A stretch of 64,000 nucleotides of DNA from Beroe forskalii (lineage: Eukaryota > Ctenophora > Nuda > Beroida > Beroidae): assembly GCA_011033025.1 (NCBI GenBank), contig WFMF01000408.1, positions 99,675 through 163,674 on the forward strand. The letters are read 5' to 3'. Of this stretch, positions 10,523 through 63,637 are shown in pieces (position 1 is the first letter of the stretch; the number at the start of each line of letters is the position of its first letter). A model generated the notes under the pieces. It was given only the letters and a program-made list of their open reading frames with translations, was not told the origin of the DNA and did not search any database. The translations under genes and the position numbers were made by a program.

Positions 10523-10641
10523 AAGGATTACTGGTGGTGATTGAAATGCATTTTTAGTTGCAAACAAAGCCCCAACAATTAAAGGATTACTGGTGGTGAT
10601 TGTAATGTCTGTTTCGTTGCAAACAAAGCCCCAACAATTAA
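10523..10641. repeat. 59-60-bp tandem repeat, copies 1 and 2
   Basis: Two adjacent copies contain GGATTACTGGTGGTGATTG and GCAAACAAAGCCCCAACAA. A third copy (12731-12790) lies on the far side of the large palindrome, which therefore inserted between copies 2 and 3. The junction of copies 1 and 2 (CAACAA TTAA AGGATT) shows the uninterrupted target with a single TTAA. Confidence 0.8.
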
Positions 10642-12730
10642 GGGGGGGCACACTTAAATTCAAGTTGACCGGCCCGCTCAGATGAGTTCATATGCTCATT
10701 CTGCAGCATACAAGGGGTACTTTACCGGAAAATTGTGATTTTTCTCGGACATTTTTGGGAATGGGCGGGCAAAGTTGGTATACTATTTCACTGTCAAAGT
10801 TTGTTGGTCCATAGCTTAATAACCATACCAGTTTCATGTATGAAAAATTTGCATGCATGTAGATCAACATGTCCACTATATAAACCCAAAGGTTTGTTTG
10901 TCAAATCATAAAATTGACTGAGTTATGGCCATTCTTGTAAGGGTACCAAATTCTAAGGAAAAGTTTGCTAGCTCCGTCATTTCTGAGCTACGGTAAGTTC
11001 CACATATGGAAATGTGTGCCTTTAGAAGCTCTACATGCGTACCAAAGGGCTAAGCCGGACATCAGTTATATCTCACATGATTATCAAATAAGTGGCAAAA
11101 TTTAACATTTTGCTGTAATTTATACACAAATATTTCATCATCCCACAATGAATAATTTCCACCGAGAACTAAATATACTTCATTTGATGTAAAATTTCAT
11201 GCTGTTCAACTTCCCGGAGCCAATTTTGGATTTTCTGTTTTTTATTTCTTGATATAACCATTTTTAAGGCCCAAAAATGCGTGTTTTGGCTATTTTCAGC
11301 CTACGAATATCGTAGAGACTTCGTTTTTTGGGCGCAAACAAATCGCAATCATCGAGTTTATATGTGACTTGTGAACAAACATATACTCTAAATCGCTCAG
11401 GAAAAAAGTTACGGGCCAAAAACTGATTTTGGTCGTTTCTGGCTTATAAAAGGTAAAGAAATCGTATCTCAGCCCAGGAAGGTCGTCTTCGTTTGGGAGC
11501 AAACGAATCGGAAACATCAAGGATTTATTTGTAACTTGTGAATCAACATGTGCTCTAAAATGCTCAGAAAAAAGTTATGGGCCAAAACCATTTTATTGAC
11601 CCAAATATGGCCCTATCTCGGCCCAGGAGTATCATAGTGACTCGATATTGGGCTCAAAATATTTCGAGAGGTCATATTTATATATGACTTGTGAACAAAC
11701 ATATAGCTTAAAACGCTCAGGAAACGAGTTATGGGCCAAAACCTTCAAACCATAATTTTATGTGATGTCAAAAATGATCTTAGAACAGTTTTTGGCTCTT
11801 AGCTCGCTTCCTGAGCGTTTTAAGCTATATGTTTGTTAAAAAGTCATATATAAATATGACCCCTAGAAAAATTTTGAACCCAAAATTGAGTCTCTATGAT
11901 ACTCCTGGGCCGAGATATGGCCATATTTTGGGTCAATAAAGTGGTTTTTGGCCCATAACTTTCTTTCTGAGCATTTTAGAGCACATGTTGATTCACAAGT
12001 TACAAATAAACTTGATGTTTCCGATTCGTTTGCGCCCAAAACGAAGTCTCTACGATGTTCGTAGGCTGAGGAATAGCCAAAACACGCATTTTTGGGCCTT
12101 AAAGATTGTTATATCAAGAAATTAAAGGCAGAAAAACCAAAATTGGCTCCGGGAAGTTGAACAGCATGAAATTTTACATCAAATGAAGTTTATTTAGTTC
12201 TCGGTGGGAAATTATTCATTGTGGGATGATGAAATATTGTGTACAATTACAGCAAAATGTTAAATTTTGCCACTTATTTGATAACTATGTGAAATATAAC
12301 TGATGCCCGGCTTAGCCCTTTGGCACGCATGTAGAGCTTCAAAAGGCACACATTTCCATATTATGTGGAATCCCACTGTAGCTCAGAAAATGACGGAGCT
12401 AGCAAACTTTTTCTTAGAATTTGGTACCCTTACAAGAATGGCCATAACTCAGTCAATTTTGCGATTTGACAAACAAACCTTTGGGTTTATATAGTGGACA
12501 TGTTGATCTACATGCATGCAAATTTTCATACATGAAACTGGTTTGGTTATCAAGCTATGGACTAACAAACTTTGACAGTGAAACACTATACCAACTTTGC
12601 CCGCTCATTCCCAAAAAATGTGTCCGAGAAAAATCACAATTTTCCGGCAAAGCACCCCTTATATGCTGCAGAATGAGCACATGAACTCATCTGAGCGGGC
12701 CGGTCAACTTGAATTTAAGTGTGCCCCCCC
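10642..12730. mobile_element. 2.1-kb giant palindromic (foldback) element with TTAA target duplication
   Basis: The element begins with seven G then CACACTTAAATTC and ends with the exact reverse complement. It is flanked by TTAA on both sides (10638-10641 and 12731-12734). The two halves are inverted copies of each other over at least 900 bases with only scattered mismatches, leaving a loop of about 70 bases near 11732-11800. The left arm holds three diverged copies of a roughly 160-base internal repeat (landmark ACTTGTGAA.CAACAT, then GGGCCAAAA) and the right arm two, which explains their unequal lengths. No transposase or other protein is visible. TTAA duplication is known for piggyBac and Kolobok transposons, so it is probably a non-autonomous member moved by such an enzyme. 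If transcribed across it would fold into very long double-stranded RNA. Confidence 0.9.
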
Positions 12731-12790
12731 TTAAAGGATTATTGGTGGAGATTGAAATGTCTGTTTGGTTGCAAACAATGCCCCAACAAA
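12731..12790. repeat. 59-60-bp tandem repeat, copy 3
   Basis: Starts TTAAAGGATTATTGGTGG and ends GCCCCAACAA. It is separated from copies 1 and 2 by the palindromic insertion. Confidence 0.8.
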
Positions 12791-13970
12791 ATAATTGCTG
12801 TTGTTTGGATCGCGCATATTTCAGGGTTAGTAAGGCAACATAATATGGTTGGTGTTAAACAAGGCGCCCAGTTCCCACATCGAAATTAGGCAGAATGTGT
12901 TAATTTATTATCATTTATTATTCTTTTAGATTGCCTCATATTAAGCCACGTTTCGTCTTACTGAAATTAAATGCCATACTGATAAGTGCTTGAGTTCATG
13001 ACTTTTGTAACAACAGCTGACGACGATTATCACATGATTTTTAAAAGCTTCTGGTTACAAATCTCGTGTATCAGTTATAATTAAGTGATTATAAGTAGAA
13101 CGACGAAACACCTCGTTTGCATTTGTACTTGTACCATTAAGTCAAAAGAAAATAAGTAAAGTACTCATTATAAAAAAATTGTACTTATGGGACTCTTATT
13201 CAATGACCCGATCCGTGAAATCAGTATACTCAACCGTTTGCCTTTTCGCCTCTAAAACTCTATTTGTGCTGGTGCCGCTTGATTAGTACTACCCCTCTAT
13301 CATCTCACTATTCCGTTGGCAAATATTCCAGGAATTATGGTAATATTATAATTTAAACTTTATAATATTCATAAAACGTTTGAGGGCTTTGTCCCAGATA
13401 AAGTTTGAAGTCTTTGTCCCCATCTCAAATGAACGGAGAGCGTTTTGTTTATCCTACTTAACGGAGCGGAGAGAGCTTTGTTATTTGCCCCAGCTCATAA
13501 TAGAATATTTTGGTAAAAAGAGCTATAATAAACATTAAACTATTATCCCATGATAATAAACTTCCCTTTGTCATAATTCCCAATAATATTTGGAAATTAA
13601 CAATTGAGTTATAATTATGCTGCTCTCCGGGCCTACTGTCTCTGACAGATCTTACGTCACCCCGACACCATATCTTGAGAACAACCTAAGAGATGGCTTA
13701 AAACTTGGAGCTCAATGTGAACCATCTGTTTAGCCATCTTTCAGGTTTTTTATGTCTATTTCTTGCAAAATATCTTGAAACCTGTTCACTGTTGTTGTCA
13801 TTGTTTTGAACTTTATTTTTCTAAGCAACTGCTTGAATTTTTGAATTTAGTCTTTGGAAAACTGGTTTACGAGCTCATCTGGAGTTAAACTGGTTTTAGG
13901 ACCACCTGGCACTTCAAAAAGCATTGTTGCCCGAATTTGCAACAAATTTATGTTTTTGATCTTACCATTT
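12791..13970. other. no gene recognised
   Basis: AT-rich, with a few phrases repeated locally (GGAGAGAGCTTTGTT, TTTGTCCC). No exon is supported. Confidence 0.4.
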
Positions 13971-14669: not shown

Positions 14670-15098
14670 ATGCAATGAACTTTGACGGTTTTTGGACGGG
14701 TTTTGGATAAGTCTTGGACGGGTTTTGGACGGGTTTTGAATAAGTCTTGGACGGGTTTTGGACAGGTTCATGACGGGTTTTGGCCGGGTTTTTGGCGGGT
14801 TTTAAACAGGCTCATGGCGGGTTTTTGACAAGTTCATAACAGGGTTAAAACAGGGTTTGACAAAGATTTCGACAGTTTGGGACAGGTTGTGAACGGGTTC
14901 TTGACAGATAAGGAACATTTTACGGACAGGTTCTAGACAGGTTTAGGTCAGGTTATTGACAGGTCTTGAACGGGTTTTCGATTTAATTTAAAGAAGACTG
15001 GGACGGGTTCTCAATAGGTTTTGGACAGGTTTGTGACGGTTTTAGACGGGTTTAGGGCTGTTTTTAACTCAATTGAGACAGGTTTTGACGGGGTACCG
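14670..15098 (+). repeat. degenerate GACGGGTTTT minisatellite upstream of the transporter
   Basis: About thirty imperfect copies of an 11-13-base unit (GGACGGGTTTT and relatives such as GGACAGGTTC), all on the plus strand, end some 60 bases before the MATE start codon. Regular GGG runs every 11-12 bases could form G-quadruplexes. Lying next to the 5' end of the gene, it may form part of the promoter or leader; that role is inferred. Confidence 0.8.
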
Positions 15099-15157
15099 TG
15101 TGTCAGGAGGCCTCATTATGGCCACTTTTAATAGAGAAATATTTGTTATATCCAGCA

Positions 15158-16752
15158 ATGTCCGGTGTGAAGGAATTTCTGAAGAAGGAATGGGAGTTCC
15201 TCACCCTTTCTGCCTCCTTCTCCTCCATGTTCCTCATCTATGTCATGATGACCTTTGTCACGCTGGTCTTTGCTGGCAACATTGACGCGCCTCACCTATC
15301 TGGCGTGGGACTGACCCATTCTGTATACGAACTGTTTGTCACCTCAATCTCGGTAGGCTACTCTTCAGTTTTTGACACCTACGGGCCTCAAGTTTATGGG
15401 TCTGGGCCCATTGAGCAGGGTCGAGCCAAGGGTGAATTAGGGGTTGTTTTGCAGAGGTGTCTCTTGCAGGGAGTCCTGATTAACTTGATCATAGCAGGAC
15501 CCTACCTTAACTTCGTGTACATCATTGACTTGCTGCCAGACGGTGGGATCTACCCTGGTGACCTTTCTGCTGCCGGAGAAGGCTCTGATTATCGGGATAT
15601 AGCTGTTCAGTATCTGAGGATTATTGTAGTGGTTGAGTACCTTGACTATGCTATCATCATGATTTCAAAATACTTTGCTATCCAGGGCTACAATAGGTTT
15701 GTATTCTTGGTTTCGGTTGTGATGATTACTGTCCACATTGCGGCTAACTATGTTTTGGTAAGTGTTTTCCAGTTGGAGGCAATAGGCCTAGGCCTTGCTG
15801 GCATCATAAGTAGGATTGTTCCATTAGTTGTTTCTTTGGTAGTGTGGACTATCCTAGCCAAAAAAGGAAATCTTGATTGGGATGGTTTCTCTAGCCGTGC
15901 TCTTCTTGGATGGAAGCCAATGATGAAACTGGGTATATCTGGGGCAATTTATGGTGTTGCTGACTACATAATGTTCGAAGTGGCCATATTCTTCAGCCAG
16001 TTTGATGGCAACGCAGCGTTACAAGTTGTTATTATCATGATGCAGTATTGGACAGTCCTGTGGTCTTTAGCCATGGGCATGGCAAGGGCATCAGCAACCC
16101 TCATTGGATCGGCTTTGAGCAAAGGATTGAAAGATGAAACACGATTCCATATGAAACTTTCAGTTGTTAATATGGGAATCTTCGCTTCTGTGGTAGCTGG
16201 TGTTAACTACTGTTTGAGGAATACGAGGTTCGCATATTTGTCTCTTCTGATGCTACTGATACTGAGAATTTGTTTGTGGAAACCTACTGGATCTTTTGCG
16301 TCTGCGTCGTTATGGATTACATGCAAGTGGCTCTCAACCAAGGCATTCTGGTAGCATTTGGTGCTCAAGTCTTCACAGCCTGGACTCAAAGTATCGCTTG
16401 CTACGTGATCGGGATACCGATAATTCTAATCACAATCTTCTTAACGGACTTGGACGTTGTGGGAACATTTATTGGTATTGGTTTGGTTGCCGTAACGATG
16501 TTTGCTACAGCATCGTTTAAAATATGGAAGACAGATATAGGTGAAATGGTAGAAATGTCACAAGAGAGGGTGACTGGCACAACTTCAACCGCTGAAATAA
16601 ATTCAACTAACGAGGCTGCTGATACGACTCTACTCGTAGGAATGACTGAAAAGCAGAAGGAAAAAAGGGGAGTTGTTATTGCGTTTATTGTTGCTTCTGT
16701 CATTCTGGTTATTCTAGCGTGTATTTCCTTTATCAGAGATTTAACTAAGTAA
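15158..16752 (+). CDS. MATE-family (SLC47-like) multidrug/organic cation transporter, one frameshift
   Basis: About 530 codons encode an integral membrane protein with a dozen or more hydrophobic segments. Recognisable family features are the N-lobe block around GPQVYGSG and VLQRCLLQG, and the C-lobe opening GWKPMMKLGISG. MATE proteins export organic cations in exchange for H+ or Na+ at the plasma membrane. The frame is open from ATG 15158 to about 16212, then continues one frame over (FEEYEVRIF...) to the stop at 16752. The shift falls at a TTT run (16213-16215), so one missing T explains it. It may be a true lesion or a homopolymer sequencing error. The last helix (VVIAFIVASVILVILACISF) matches animal MATEs with an extra C-terminal segment. 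Where human MATE1 has a key glutamate in TM7 the corresponding position looks like Asp (VADYIMFE), but this is my unaided alignment. No introns are visible. The ATG was chosen over upstream codons because the protein family starts near there. Confidence 0.85.
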
Positions 16753-18689: not shown

Positions 18690-19640
18690 AAGTTGGGGTC
18701 ACCAGGGGGTCAGTAGGGGACTAGGGGTTAGTGGGGGTCACCAAGGGGTCAGTAGGGGTTCGCCAGGGGTCAGCAGGGGTACGTATAGGGAGTTCACCAG
18801 GGGTCAGCAGGGGTTCAGTATGGGGTCAGCAGGGGTTCAGTAGGAGTTCACTAGGGAGTCAGCAGGGATTCACCAGGGGGTCAGTAGAGGGTCAGCTGAG
18901 GACACCAGGGGTTCAATAGGGGGTCACCAGGGGGATAGTGGGGTCACCAGGGGGTCAGTACGGTAAGTAGGGGTCACCAGGGGGTCAGTAGGGGTCAGTA
19001 GGAGGTCACCAGGGGGTCTGTAGGGGTTCACCAGTGGTCACCAGGGGGTTAGTACTAATAGTAGTTAACCAGGGAGTCAGCAGGGGTTCAGTAGGGGTTC
19101 AGTATGGGGTCAGTAGGGGTTCAGTATGGGGTCAGCAGGGGTTCAGTAGGAGTTCACCAGGGAGTCAGCAGGGATTCACCAGGGGGTCAGTAGAGGGTCA
19201 GCAGGACATCAGGGGTTCAATTGGGGGTCACCAGGGGCATAGTGGGGTCACCAGGGGGTCAGTAGGGTAAGTAGGGGTCATCAGGGGGTCAGTAGGGGTT
19301 AGTGGGGTCAGTAGGGGTTAGTGGGGGTCAGTAGGAGGTCACCAGGGGGTCTGTAGGGGTTCACCAGTGGTCACCAGGGGGTTAGTACTAGTAGTAATTC
19401 ACCAGGGAGTCAGTAGGGGCTCAGCAGGGGTTTAGTAGGAGTTCACCATGGAGCCACCAGGGGCTAAGTAGGGTTCACCAGGGGGTCAGCAGGGGGTCAG
19501 TTCCAGGGTTCACCAGGGGTTTGTAGAGGGTCAACAGGGGGTCAGCAGGGTTCAGTTAGGCTTCACCAGGGGTCATTAGAGGGTCACCAGGGGGTCAGCA
19601 GGGGTTCAGTAGGGGGTCAGTATGAGGTCAGTTGGGGAGT
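18690..19640 (+). repeat. G-rich minisatellite inside the insertion
   Basis: About 950 bases of variants of GGGGTCACCAGG and GGGGTCAGTAGG (11-12-base units), with higher-order copies of about 290 bases (for example the block ending TAGTACTA appears near 19050 and 19390). The plus strand carries GGG or longer in nearly every unit, giving strong G-quadruplex potential. Open frames through it only read the repeat. Confidence 0.9.
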
Positions 19641-20473: not shown

Positions 20474-21103
20474 TGGCCGTTGGCCGGTGGACCCCCCCCC
20501 AGTGAATATCCCACGGAATCCGAAACAGCACAAAAAGTAATCCCATAACCGAGTAAAATTTACGGTCGGAGTGAATGCATTAGCACTTACATCAAAGATT
20601 CAGATAGTCGAAGCTACTACTACAACATACGCCTTCAGACTTTATTTCACTATGTTACACAGTGACAAAAATAGTATACTCAGCCTTTCTTGAAATTTTA
20701 TTTTCCTTCCAGGAGTAAACATGGTGCTCATGAGTATGTAGATGTGAATGCACCTCGTGCGCTCTAAAATAGGGGTCCCATCCTCATCATCATTTAACCA
20801 CTTCGAGCCTTGATAATGACATCATTCTAGCCAACTATTTATGTATTTAGAAGGCGCGCCAATGTTATCATGAGTGTTGGGGGTGTATGTGCAGAGTCAT
20901 TATATACCACTTGGTGTAGGGCACTGGTGTACAGAGGCACTGGTATGTAGGGGCACTGGTGTGTGTGGTGGCAGCCTCGGAACCGATTGTTTTTTCACAA
21001 TTACCACCGAATAAAGAGGAGAGCTGTACATGGTGCTGCGGTACGATATATCGATATGTGGTAGAATGTTCAGATGTAAGGCAGGGTTGCGAGGCGCGCC
21101 AAT

Positions 21104-21285
21104 ATGCGCACTTATTTGCGCACTTATTTGCGCACCAATATGTACACCCATATGAGCACTTATTTGCGCACCAATATGTGCACCAATAGGCGCGCCAATA
21201 TGTACACCAATATGCGCACTTATTTGCGCAACAATGTGTGCACCAATGTCTGCACCAATAGGCGCACCAATGTCTGCACGATATG
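21104..21285 (+). repeat. minisatellite of GCGCACCAATATGTGCACC type
   Basis: Alternating GCGCACTTATTTGCGCACC and TGCACCAATATG phrases. The equivalent array at 25672-25825 in the second large unit has a different arrangement, so it changed after duplication. Open frames through it are products of the repeat. Confidence 0.8.
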
Positions 21286-59666: not shown

Positions 59667-60256
59667 GTGAGTATGATCCTTAGAATTGATAACGTTTCCT
59701 AAATATAGATTACAAATTCAAATTTCATTCATTTGAGTGGTATAAACTCTGTTCATATTTAGACAACTACCAAGGTCATAATAATACCAAGAACCGGAGT
59801 AACATTGGGTATTTTGTATTTGTCATGCTTGTGGAATCTATCCTCCTTCTTCTCCACTTAGTAAGTAGCTATGATTGACAACTCCCTAAAACGTGGTTTT
59901 AACCTGACTTAAGACTCAGGAATGTAAAGCCTCTGGCGTCTCTCAATTTTAAAATAAGAAAGCAACTATATATCAGATTGATAAACAAATTTCATACATG
60001 AACTTTGCACTCATGAACTTCATTTCAACTTCATGACCCTGAAAATGAAAACCTTAGAGTAAAAAATATTTTATTATAAAGACAAATTTTTTTGAATCGC
60101 ATTTCAATCAATACAATGTATTGATTGAAATGTCATATCAGTACATTTTTAAATTTCGATTCATCAACATAATATAATAGTCTAGTAGTCTACGACTACG
60201 TATTAATACAATGCAAAACGCAGCAACCACTAAGTTTTACTCAATACTCATGTCAG
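59667..60256 (+). other. intron 1 of the Notch-ligand-like gene
   Basis: GTGAGT...TGTCAG, 590 nt. Contains a perfect hairpin at 60100-60132 (CATTTCAATCAATAC / GTATTGATTGAAATG). Confidence 0.65.
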
Positions 60257-63166
60257 GTACCAACACATCAATCTGGGACTGGCTACATAAAGTTCGTAGA
60301 ATACCACGACAAATCAAATTGTGACAGCGGTTCAGACTGTGATTTCTACTTCTATCAGCTGGAAGTATACGATTCTACAAGGTCTCAGCTGGTATATGTT
60401 AAGACCACTGATGATGCAGGCAACAGAGATACAGTTAATTTTGAAACTGATATACCAGAGATCATGTCACAGTACAGCTTCACAATGAAAACCAATGACA
60501 GTGCTATAATGCTGCGTACAGAGGTGTGGGATGTGGACAGTGGTTTGGGTCAGAAAAATGATAAGATACGTGATTTAGATGAACTTGTGATACCCTACAA
60601 TGACATCACAGCCACCAGTTCATGGATCGATCATCAATTTACTTTAAGCAATCCATATGGGTATTTCCGAATAAAGATCAAAATATCATGTTCTGAACAC
60701 TTCGAAGGCAAGGGTTGTAACTTCTGCTCAGATAACTACTACACAAGTACATGTGACAAATTCTGCCAAAGAATAGGTAATTACACTTGCAGTTCAGATG
60801 GAGATGAGATATGTGTTGAACATAAGACAGGAGAGAACTGTGATGTGTGTGAGGTGGGATGGGCTGGCTTGGATTGTAAGGAATGTTCAGACAATTATTT
60901 CCCAGATGGAGTCTGTGAAAAGTTCTGCAAATCAGTTCAAGGTAGCTACACCTGTAGTGCAGAAGGAGATAAGATGTGTACTGAACATAAGACAGGAGAG
61001 AACTGTGATGTGTGTGAGGTGGGATGGGCTGGCTTGGATTGTATGGAATGTGCAGACAATTATTACCCAGATGGAGTCTGTGAAAAGTTCTGCAAATCAG
61101 TTCAAGGTAGCTACACCTGCAGTTCAGAAGGGGATAAGATGTGTGTTGAACATAAGACAGGAGAGAACTGTGATGTGTGTGAGGTGGGATGGGCTGGCTT
61201 GGACTGCTTGACATGTGCAGTCAATTATTACCCAGATGGAGTCTGTGAAAAGTTCTGCAAATCAGTTCAAGGTAACTACACCTGCAGTGCAGAAGGAGAT
61301 AAGATGTGTACTGAACATAAGACAGGAGAGAACTGTGATGTATGTGAATTAGGATGGGCTGGCTTGGATTGTATGGAATGTGCAGACAATTATTTCCCAG
61401 ATGGAGTCTGTGAAAAGTTCTGCAAATCAGTTCAAGGTAACTACACCTGTAGTGCAGAAGGAGATAAGATGTGTACTGAACATAAGAGAGGAGAGAACTG
61501 TGATGTGTGTGAAGTGGGATGGGCTGGCTTGGATTGTATGGAATGTGCAGACAATTATTTCCCAGATGGAGTCTGTGAAAAGTTCTGCAAATCAGTTCAA
61601 GGTAACTACACCTGTAGTTCAGAAGGAGATAAGATGTGTACTGAACATAAGACAGGAGAGAACTGTGATGTGTGTGAAGTGGGATGGGCTGGCTTGGATT
61701 GTAAGGAATGTGCAGACAATTATTACCCGGATGGAGTCTGTGAAAATTTCTGCAAATCAGTTCAAGGTAACTACACCTGTAGTGCAGAAGGAGATAAGAT
61801 GTGTACTGAACATAAGACAGGAGAGAACTGTGATGTGTGTGAAGAAGGATGGACTGGCTTGGATTGTATGGAATGTGCAGACAATTATTACCCGGATGGA
61901 GTCTGTGAAAAGTTCTGCAAATCAGTTCAAGGTAACTACTTAACTACACCTGTAGTTCAGAAGGAGATAAGATTTGTGCTGAACATAAGACAGGAGAGAA
62001 CTGTGATGTGTGTGAAGTGGGATGGACTGGCTTGGATTGTATGGAATGTGCATACAATTATTACCCGGATGGAGTCTGTGAAAAGTTCTGCAAACCAGTT
62101 CAAGGTAACTACACCTGTAGTTCAGAAGGGGATAAGATGTGTGCTAAACATAAGACAGGAGAGAACTGTGATGTGTGTGAAGAAGGATGGGCTGGCTTGG
62201 ATTGTAAGGAATGTGCAGACAATTATTACCCGGATGGAGTCTGTGAAAAGTTCTGCAAATCAGTTCAAGGTAACTACACCTGTAGTGCAGAAGGAGATAA
62301 GATGTGTACTGAACATAAGACAGGAGAGAACTGTGATGTGTGTGAAGAAGGATGGAATGGCTTGGATTGTATGAAATGCGCTGACAATTATTACCCAGAT
62401 GGAAACTGCACTGTGGAATGTGTACAACAGGTTGGGAAGTTCAACTGCTCTGATAAAGGACAAAAAGTTTGCTATGAAAACTGGTCAGGTTTGGATTGCA
62501 ATGAGTGTGCTGAAAGAAGGGAAGGGGACAATTGTGATCAGTGCATTGAGGGCTGGGGTGGCACTAAATGCCAGGAATGTGAAGAGAACTATTATCCTGA
62601 AGGATTCTGTAATGTCACATGCAAACCAGAGTTAGGAAGATACAACTGCTCAGATCAAGGCCAAAAAGTTTGCTATGAAAACTGGTCAGGTTTGAATTGC
62701 TCTGTGTGTGCTGAAAGATGGAAAGGGGAGAATTGTGATCAGTGCATTGAGGGCTGGACTGGCGCTAAATGTCAGGAATGTTCAAAAAACTATTACCCTT
62801 CAAGATTCTGTAATATCACATGTATAGAAGAGTTGGGAAGGTTCAACTGCTCAGATCAAGGTCAAAAAGTTTGCAATGAAAACTGGTCAGGTTTGAATTG
62901 CTCTGTGTGTGCAGAAAGAAGGAAAGGGGATGATTGTGACCAATGTATTACGGGATGGGCTGGAAATCAATGTCACAAATGTGCAAAGAACTATTATCCA
63001 GAAGGCAATTGTAGTGTGAAATGTATCGAAGAAAAGGATAAATTCAAATGTGATGAATATGGTAAAAAGGTTTGCAATCATAACCGGAACGGTACAGACT
63101 GTGTGGAATGTGCAGACAATTATTACCCTGCTGGAGTCTGTGACAAGTACAGCAAACCATTTGAAG
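60257..63166 (+). CDS. Notch-ligand-like protein: N-terminal domain plus about 14 tandem DSL-like modules; frame broken by an 8-bp duplication
   Basis: The exon starts in phase 0 and reads GTGYIKFVEYHDKSNC..., about 150 residues resembling the MNNL/C2-like N-terminal domain of Delta and Jagged. From about 60690 there follow cysteine modules of 55 residues with the DSL plan: C..NYYPDGVC, YTC, G..C, then GENCDVCEVGWAGLDC. Ten are of this type and nearly identical to each other. Three to four later ones are about 67 residues, with an extra W..LNC..CAER segment. In animals DSL domains bind Notch receptors; one per ligand is usual. TAACTACT/TAACTACA at 61933-61948 is an 8-bp tandem duplication that shifts the frame in module 8; afterwards the array continues in the new frame. 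The exon may end at GAAG|GTAACT (63166); otherwise the frame stops at 63207. No transmembrane segment is in view. Confidence 0.8.
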
Positions 63167-63637
63167 GTAACTATATCTCTATTGCATTGGGAGATAACAT
63201 ACTGTAATTTCCGTATTTTTCACGAAAATTTGTATGAATAGGTATGATTTATGAATTTGCTAGACGACATCGAATAGGTATGATTTATGAATTTGCCAGA
63301 CGACATCGAACGTCAAAATAAGGTGACGAGAGTTCTCATAATATTCAAACATAAAACATTATTTGTCAATCATTTAAAACACTTGTAACGGCAGTAAGAT
63401 CACCGAAAATATAAAATATAGCAGTGGACATTACATTATAGTTTTACAATTATGTAACACTATGATAAGATGATGATAATAATACTAAGTACAGATTCTT
63501 CTTAGTATGAACTCATTAGTAAAAAACTATTAACTCAGTCAGTCATTAGTATAAACTCATTACTATAAACCAGCTTTCCTTAACCCAGAAATCATAAGGT
63601 CTGATTAATTACTGAGATAATGCTATTTATCATAAGA
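63167..63637 (+). other. intron or 3' region with a 37-bp direct repeat
   Basis: AATAGGTATGATTTATGAATTTG, then GACGACATCG type unit occurs twice at about 63236-63309. No exon. Confidence 0.55.

Follow-up and report, generated by a model that had tools for sequence, protein, structure and literature searches.

A near-complete palindrome inserted at TTAA in Beroe forskalii represents a multi-copy transposon family, probably moved by a Kolobok transposase

A stretch of 64,000 nucleotides from the ctenophore Beroe forskalii (contig WFMF01000408.1, positions 99,675 to 163,674; referred to below as the window) contains an element of 2.1 kb that is complementary to itself over nearly its whole length and is bordered by TTAA. 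Such a structure raises the question of whether it is a genuine mobile element or a product of sequencing and assembly and, if it is mobile, which enzyme moves it. The analysis presented here demonstrates that the element is a real, multi-copy palindromic transposon whose family is new but whose kind is already known. It is most likely a non-autonomous class II transposon of the foldback type that is moved in trans by a Kolobok transposase, a reading to which a probability of about 0.74 is assigned.

The palindrome in the window and its insertion site

The features of the element and of its flanks are as follows (positions in the window; strand given where it applies).

10523..10640, plus strand: two 59-bp tandem units (starts 10523 and 10582) whose junction is the uninterrupted target; from the repeat family
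10638..10641: left target-site duplication TTAA, read in the sequence
10642..12730: palindromic non-autonomous transposon, 2089 bp; from self-comparison and the 44 end matches in the genome, its own two counted
10642..11741, plus strand: left arm, 1100 bp; boundary set against the copy at C580; 95% identity with the right arm where the two align
10642..10661, plus strand: left terminus, the 20-mer GGGGGGGCACACTTAAATTC, which has ACTTAAA in common with intact Kolobok ends
11357..11744, plus strand: arm subrepeats of ~160 bp, marked by three diverged 68-bp matches (11357-11424, 11524-11591, 11677-11744); present in other copies too
11742..11789, plus strand: asymmetric spacer, 48 bp, including AAACCATAATTTTATGTGATGTCAAAAATGATCTTA; recognisable at 20 of the 31 loci scanned
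11790..12730, minus strand: right arm, 941 bp, ~160 bp shorter than the left, the shortening accompanying a fused subrepeat
12711..12730, minus strand: right terminus, the left 20-mer inverted; from the end-sequence match
12731..12734: right target-site duplication TTAA, read in the sequence
12734..12792, plus strand: third 59-bp unit, beyond the insertion; from the repeat family

An earlier, sequence-only reading of this DNA described nearly the whole element as self-complementary, and the measurements agree with it. When the two arms are aligned, 865 positions are identical and 43 are mismatched (95% of 908), with 185 gap positions, most of which correspond to a single stretch of ~160 bp that is absent from the right arm. 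Moreover, 504 of the 2068 distinct 20-mers of the element recur in its own reverse complement, the maximum among 200 mononucleotide shuffles being 0. The predicted single-strand fold contains 894 pairs between the two halves and has a minimum free energy of -1537, compared with -476 to -489 for five shuffled sequences. Long inverted arms thus make up most of the element and carry internal subrepeats, which is the architecture of a foldback transposon. The element has no coding capacity, as its longest frame comprises 92 codons.

The insertion at TTAA described by the same reading is likewise confirmed, as is the presence of an empty site in the neighbouring 59-bp repeat. Joining the flanks over a single TTAA gives ...CCCCAACAATTAAAGGATTATTGG, which matches the junction of the first and second units save for the repeat's own differences; the similarity is 91% over a stretch of 115 bp that spans the junction. 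This empty site had been called dated, but nothing in it dates the insertion. Of the 11 joins tested, only that of the window has an empty site; the sequence compared yielded none for C802 or for any of the nine further complete copies.

The window also holds features outside the palindrome. Two overlapping frames with tandem DSL (Delta/Serrate ligand) domains, with 7 and 6 matched stretches, are located at 60173-63207 on the plus strand and coincide with tandem repeats in the DNA whose units measure 165 bp and 201 bp; a single DSL domain is the usual number in Notch ligands. A frame with a MatE transporter domain is found at 15089-16752 (plus strand; 15089-16351 searched). Minisatellites are present at 14680-14843 (unit GACGGGTTTTG), 18695-19631 (unit GGGGTCAGCAG, in a 2-kb bin of 50% GC) and 21094-21271 (unit GCGCACCAATAT).

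A dispersed family and the likeness of its arms

A lack of other copies had been named as grounds for giving up the first reading of the element, and copies proved to be present. In the genome searched (216 Mb, 1134 contigs), the terminal 20-mer occurs exactly 31 times and, within two mismatches, 44 times on 31 contigs, while the reversed control gives 0. A search with the left arm found at least 89 matching stretches, a lower bound given that 40 of 1238 first-look candidates were scored. The copies compared below are 35 places of left-arm match on other contigs, together with the window.

The expectation of TTAA at other insertions was also borne out. Of the 43 family ends examined (the 44th, at C637, was left out), 41 have TTAA immediately before them, the two exceptions being ATAA at C558 and TTAT at C292. 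Both sides carry TTAA in 12 of the 14 elements with both termini located, namely the ten complete copies and those at C802, C558, C292 and C666; C556, whose right terminus is altered, is among the 14. At C789, two palindrome copies abut on one TTAA.

Ten copies, including that of the window, are complete and uninterrupted, measuring 1642-2274 bp with both TTAAs counted, and their arms are 91.7-99.1% identical to each other. The usual form of the family consists of two arms of ~1.1 kb and an asymmetric spacer of ~50 bp, about 2.26 kb in all, with three subrepeats of ~160 bp on the inner side of each full arm. On the contigs the spacer occurs in either orientation (20 of the 31 loci scanned; the other 11 have no recognisable spacer). 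Interrupted copies are found at C802, C558 and C666. The copies at C259 and C791 have the same truncated-centre junction at different flanks, and a palindrome was therefore still mobile after it had been shortened.

These observations bear directly on the idea that sequencing or assembly created the palindrome as an artefact, by joining a foldback read to itself. At C1:1470800 and C111:454400, one arm is 17-19% diverged with few shared changes, which looks like uncorrected base-calling error, and base-calling error at inverted duplicates is an effect reported for nanopore sequencing in the passages cited from PMC7229812. Such an artefact would account neither for the 12 elements that have TTAA to their left and right at different flanks, nor for the asymmetric central spacer, nor for the 5% by which the arms of the window copy diverge. 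Because the terminal 20-mer occurs 44 times on 31 contigs, with none in the reversed control, misassembly is rejected and retains hardly any probability.

In a second family, with GGGG..CACAC ends, a short TTAA-flanked element is located at C616:62301-62894 and ends in GGGGCTGCACACACGTGG / GGGGGTGCACACACGTGG; several more ends of this kind (GGGGCTGCACAC-type) are present in the genome.

Relatedness among the arms was considered with a tree of 49 sequences from 31 loci, labelled by spacer orientation, in which there is no two-clade split by side. Within copies, the mean residual of arm identity is 0.025, compared with 0.000 (sd 0.004) under random pairing, and none of 5000 random pairings reaches this value. 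This test covers 19 elements (minimum 300 shared columns), the copies at C802 and C558 each being assembled from two loci, and both the tree and the within-copy identities include the fused-subrepeat columns. Because the arms of a copy are closer to each other than arms paired at random, it appears that repair by way of hairpins or gene conversion sometimes homogenises the two arms. This is a tendency only: the residuals are negative in three copies (C373, C1 and C111), and there are several copies whose arms resemble many arms from elsewhere in the family more than they resemble their own partner (37 of 94 comparisons for the window). The palindrome as a whole appears to move as one unit.

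A chimeric origin of the window copy was considered, because in the tree the right arm of this copy falls together with C666 and C192. Almost all the changes in question lie in the fused subrepeat: of the 13 that the window right arm shares with C192, 12 are at columns 843-920, as are 10 of the 12 shared with C666, and elsewhere only columns 235 and 112 are involved. These common changes are explained if that subrepeat was lost independently, and the claim was dropped.

The strongly diverged arms form a separate observation. In C1:1470800-1473900 and C111:454400-457300, the changes of the one affected arm are scattered and lie mainly in the outer two thirds, the inner third being near normal. 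Of the changed sites, 22 are derived and shared, 96 and 110 are private, and 24 are changed in both arms but differently. Judged from this pattern, the scattered changes are probably sequence error rather than biology.

The source of the transposase

The first reading held that another element's transposase must be used, and the present results concur: since no enzyme is encoded and the family is dispersed, the palindrome is moved in trans. In the proposed mechanism, a transposase made elsewhere would recognise the identical ends GGGGGGGCACACTTAAATTC, and the same enzyme would excise the palindrome by cut-and-paste and insert it at TTAA, duplicating the TTAA. This enzyme is most likely a Kolobok transposase of the Kol0 type, with THAP and DDE domains.

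Kolobok is favoured because of the TTAA duplication and the RR..YY ends, a common subterminal ACTTAAA motif and the presence of intact Kolobok genes in the genome. According to the passages cited from PMC9587614, TTAA duplication together with 5'-RR..YY-3' ends is the signature of Kolobok that separates it from piggyBac. The palindrome family duplicates TTAA, and its GG..CC termini follow the 5'-RR / YY-3' rule, the ends read showing a run of G immediately inside the target site. An intact Kol0 Kolobok is located at C1:635547-639757. It encodes a transposase with THAP (1.8e-14) and Mutator-like DDE (4.6e-14) domains and, divergent to it, KolX/P2RX7_C (8.4e-13). It is flanked by TTAA and ends in AGGACGAGTGTACTTAAAAT / AGGACGGGTGTACTTAAAAA, being delimited by TTAA and the terminal inverted repeat. 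ACTTAAA is common to its ends and those of the palindrome. The similarity is moderate, with 11 and 12 of 18 positions agreeing at the best offset between the palindrome end and the two C1 Kolobok ends; among the window's 892 TTAA sites, a score of 12 of 18 is reached by 2, both of which belong to the 218 sites that are followed by RR. KolX itself has 76 matches in the genome and none in the 14 control genomes.

On the favourable side, 7 of 46 ends of the C1 Kolobok's AGGACG type (picked among 100 places listed) have a KolX match no more than 10 kb away. Many pairs of AGGACG-type ends about 2 kb apart were observed in the genome. Several results count against this reading. None of the 44 palindrome ends comes that close to KolX, the nearest match being at 16 kb, although a Kolobok without KolX could escape this search. 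A tblastn search with the C1 Kolobok transposase over the window and the compared loci matched its own source alone. Taken with proximity to KolX and piggyBac matches, it gave no transposase between palindrome-type ends. The looser pattern TTAARGGN{5,9}ACTTAAA showed no enrichment (121 matches vs 121 in the reversed control).

The sequence-only reading had proposed piggyBac or Kolobok as the partner. A piggyBac-superfamily transposase likewise targets and duplicates TTAA, as seen at nearly all examined ends of this family, and the piggyBac domain PF13843 has 15 matches in the genome, several with long open frames, the best two of 958 and 992 codons. However, none of the 44 palindrome ends lies within 10 kb of a piggyBac match. 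Moreover, piggyBac ends begin with CCY. The GG..CC ends of the palindrome are of the Kolobok type, not the piggyBac type, by the distinction cited from PMC9587614. Movement by piggyBac is thus considered unlikely, and Kolobok is the half of the proposal that fits the ends better.

When KolX and piggyBac matches were compared with the 44 ends, no autonomous element bearing the ends of the palindrome came to light, and the partner therefore has to be inferred. The same result would suit another TTAA-targeting superfamily, such as Sola3, which targets TTAA, or an autonomous element that is lost and extinct. The ACTTAAA motif in common with a resident Kolobok counts against both, and this explanation is rated somewhat below piggyBac, leaving a Kolobok transposase as the preferred partner.

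Several loci were examined as possible autonomous copies or relatives and rejected. The C802 locus (11.6 kb) is instead a palindrome copy interrupted by an insert of ~9.4 kb, and the C558 locus (22 kb) is interrupted by a retroelement that carries integrase domains, as well as by other sequence; neither has a match to the C1 Kolobok transposase. The C802 insert (C802:1445875-1455266) comprises a 52-bp minisatellite array between its own 687-bp inverted repeats, which are 94% identical and partly resemble the palindrome subrepeats. The C255 locus (815-bp inverted repeats, 94%) is a different object, though it contains a diverged relative of the palindrome arm. In C255:77156-88900, its repeats are about 10 kb apart and the arm relative inside is 78% similar. 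At C483:38593, an end starting with GGGGGGGCACAC has, beyond the 17 terminal bases, matches to the window element of at most 12 bases, a length expected by chance (621 bases read).

Relation to known foldback and Kolobok elements

The statement in the first reading that most foldback elements have short arms and unrelated middles was too sweeping. In Galileo, an element of the P superfamily in Drosophila, non-coding copies consist of almost only long arms (PMC4168063, PMC2775673, passages cited); for example, one copy of 9021 bp is made of terminal inverted repeats of 4246 and 4680 bp (PMC4168063). According to the same passages, some Galileo arms carry internal tandem repeats, arm length varies, the ends are more conserved and target-site duplications are present, in all of which the palindrome family is similar. 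In contrast, Galileo has 7-8-bp duplications and a P-type transposase, and the palindrome has TTAA and probably a Kolobok enzyme.

Among TTAA-targeting elements, Kolobok (Kol0) and the Xenopus T2-MITEs resemble the palindrome in their TTAA duplication and purine-purine 5' ends (PMC9587614, PMC6004289, passages cited). The T2-MITEs, presumed to be non-autonomous, were assigned to Kolobok by TTAA and RR ends (PMC6004289), the same features as those used here. Xenopus Kolobok elements and T2-MITEs differ in that the ends given for them in the passages cited start with AG, whereas the palindrome ends start with GG, and the passages that describe them report no near-total palindrome, unlike the element of the window. 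KolobokP, as described in PMC9587614 in the part cited, is a composite of the Kolobok lineage with long repeats at both ends, but these are direct, in contrast to the inverted repeats of the palindrome. Among the papers listed in a literature search for palindromic or foldback Kolobok elements, none dealt with such an element as far as titles and the beginnings of abstracts show. Foldback architecture and TTAA chemistry are thus each already known, and their combination is not evident in the literature searched, which is not proof of absence.

A further, more tentative idea is that this is a Kolobok-dependent family reduced to its inverted arms that keeps itself palindromic. Loss of the centre would give shorter, still mobile palindromes, such as those with the common junction at C259 and C791, and hairpin-templated repair would match the arms to each other again. 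If this is true, such a self-maintaining palindrome family would be, to our knowledge, the first known foldback lineage for Kolobok.

The family adds a near-complete palindrome to the DNA transposons that target TTAA, and its copy number allows the survival of long inverted repeats and the likeness of their arms to be studied. Near-perfect hairpins of kilobase length could plausibly give rise to double-stranded RNA and to breaks in DNA, and genome assemblies may carry one-arm errors at such places.
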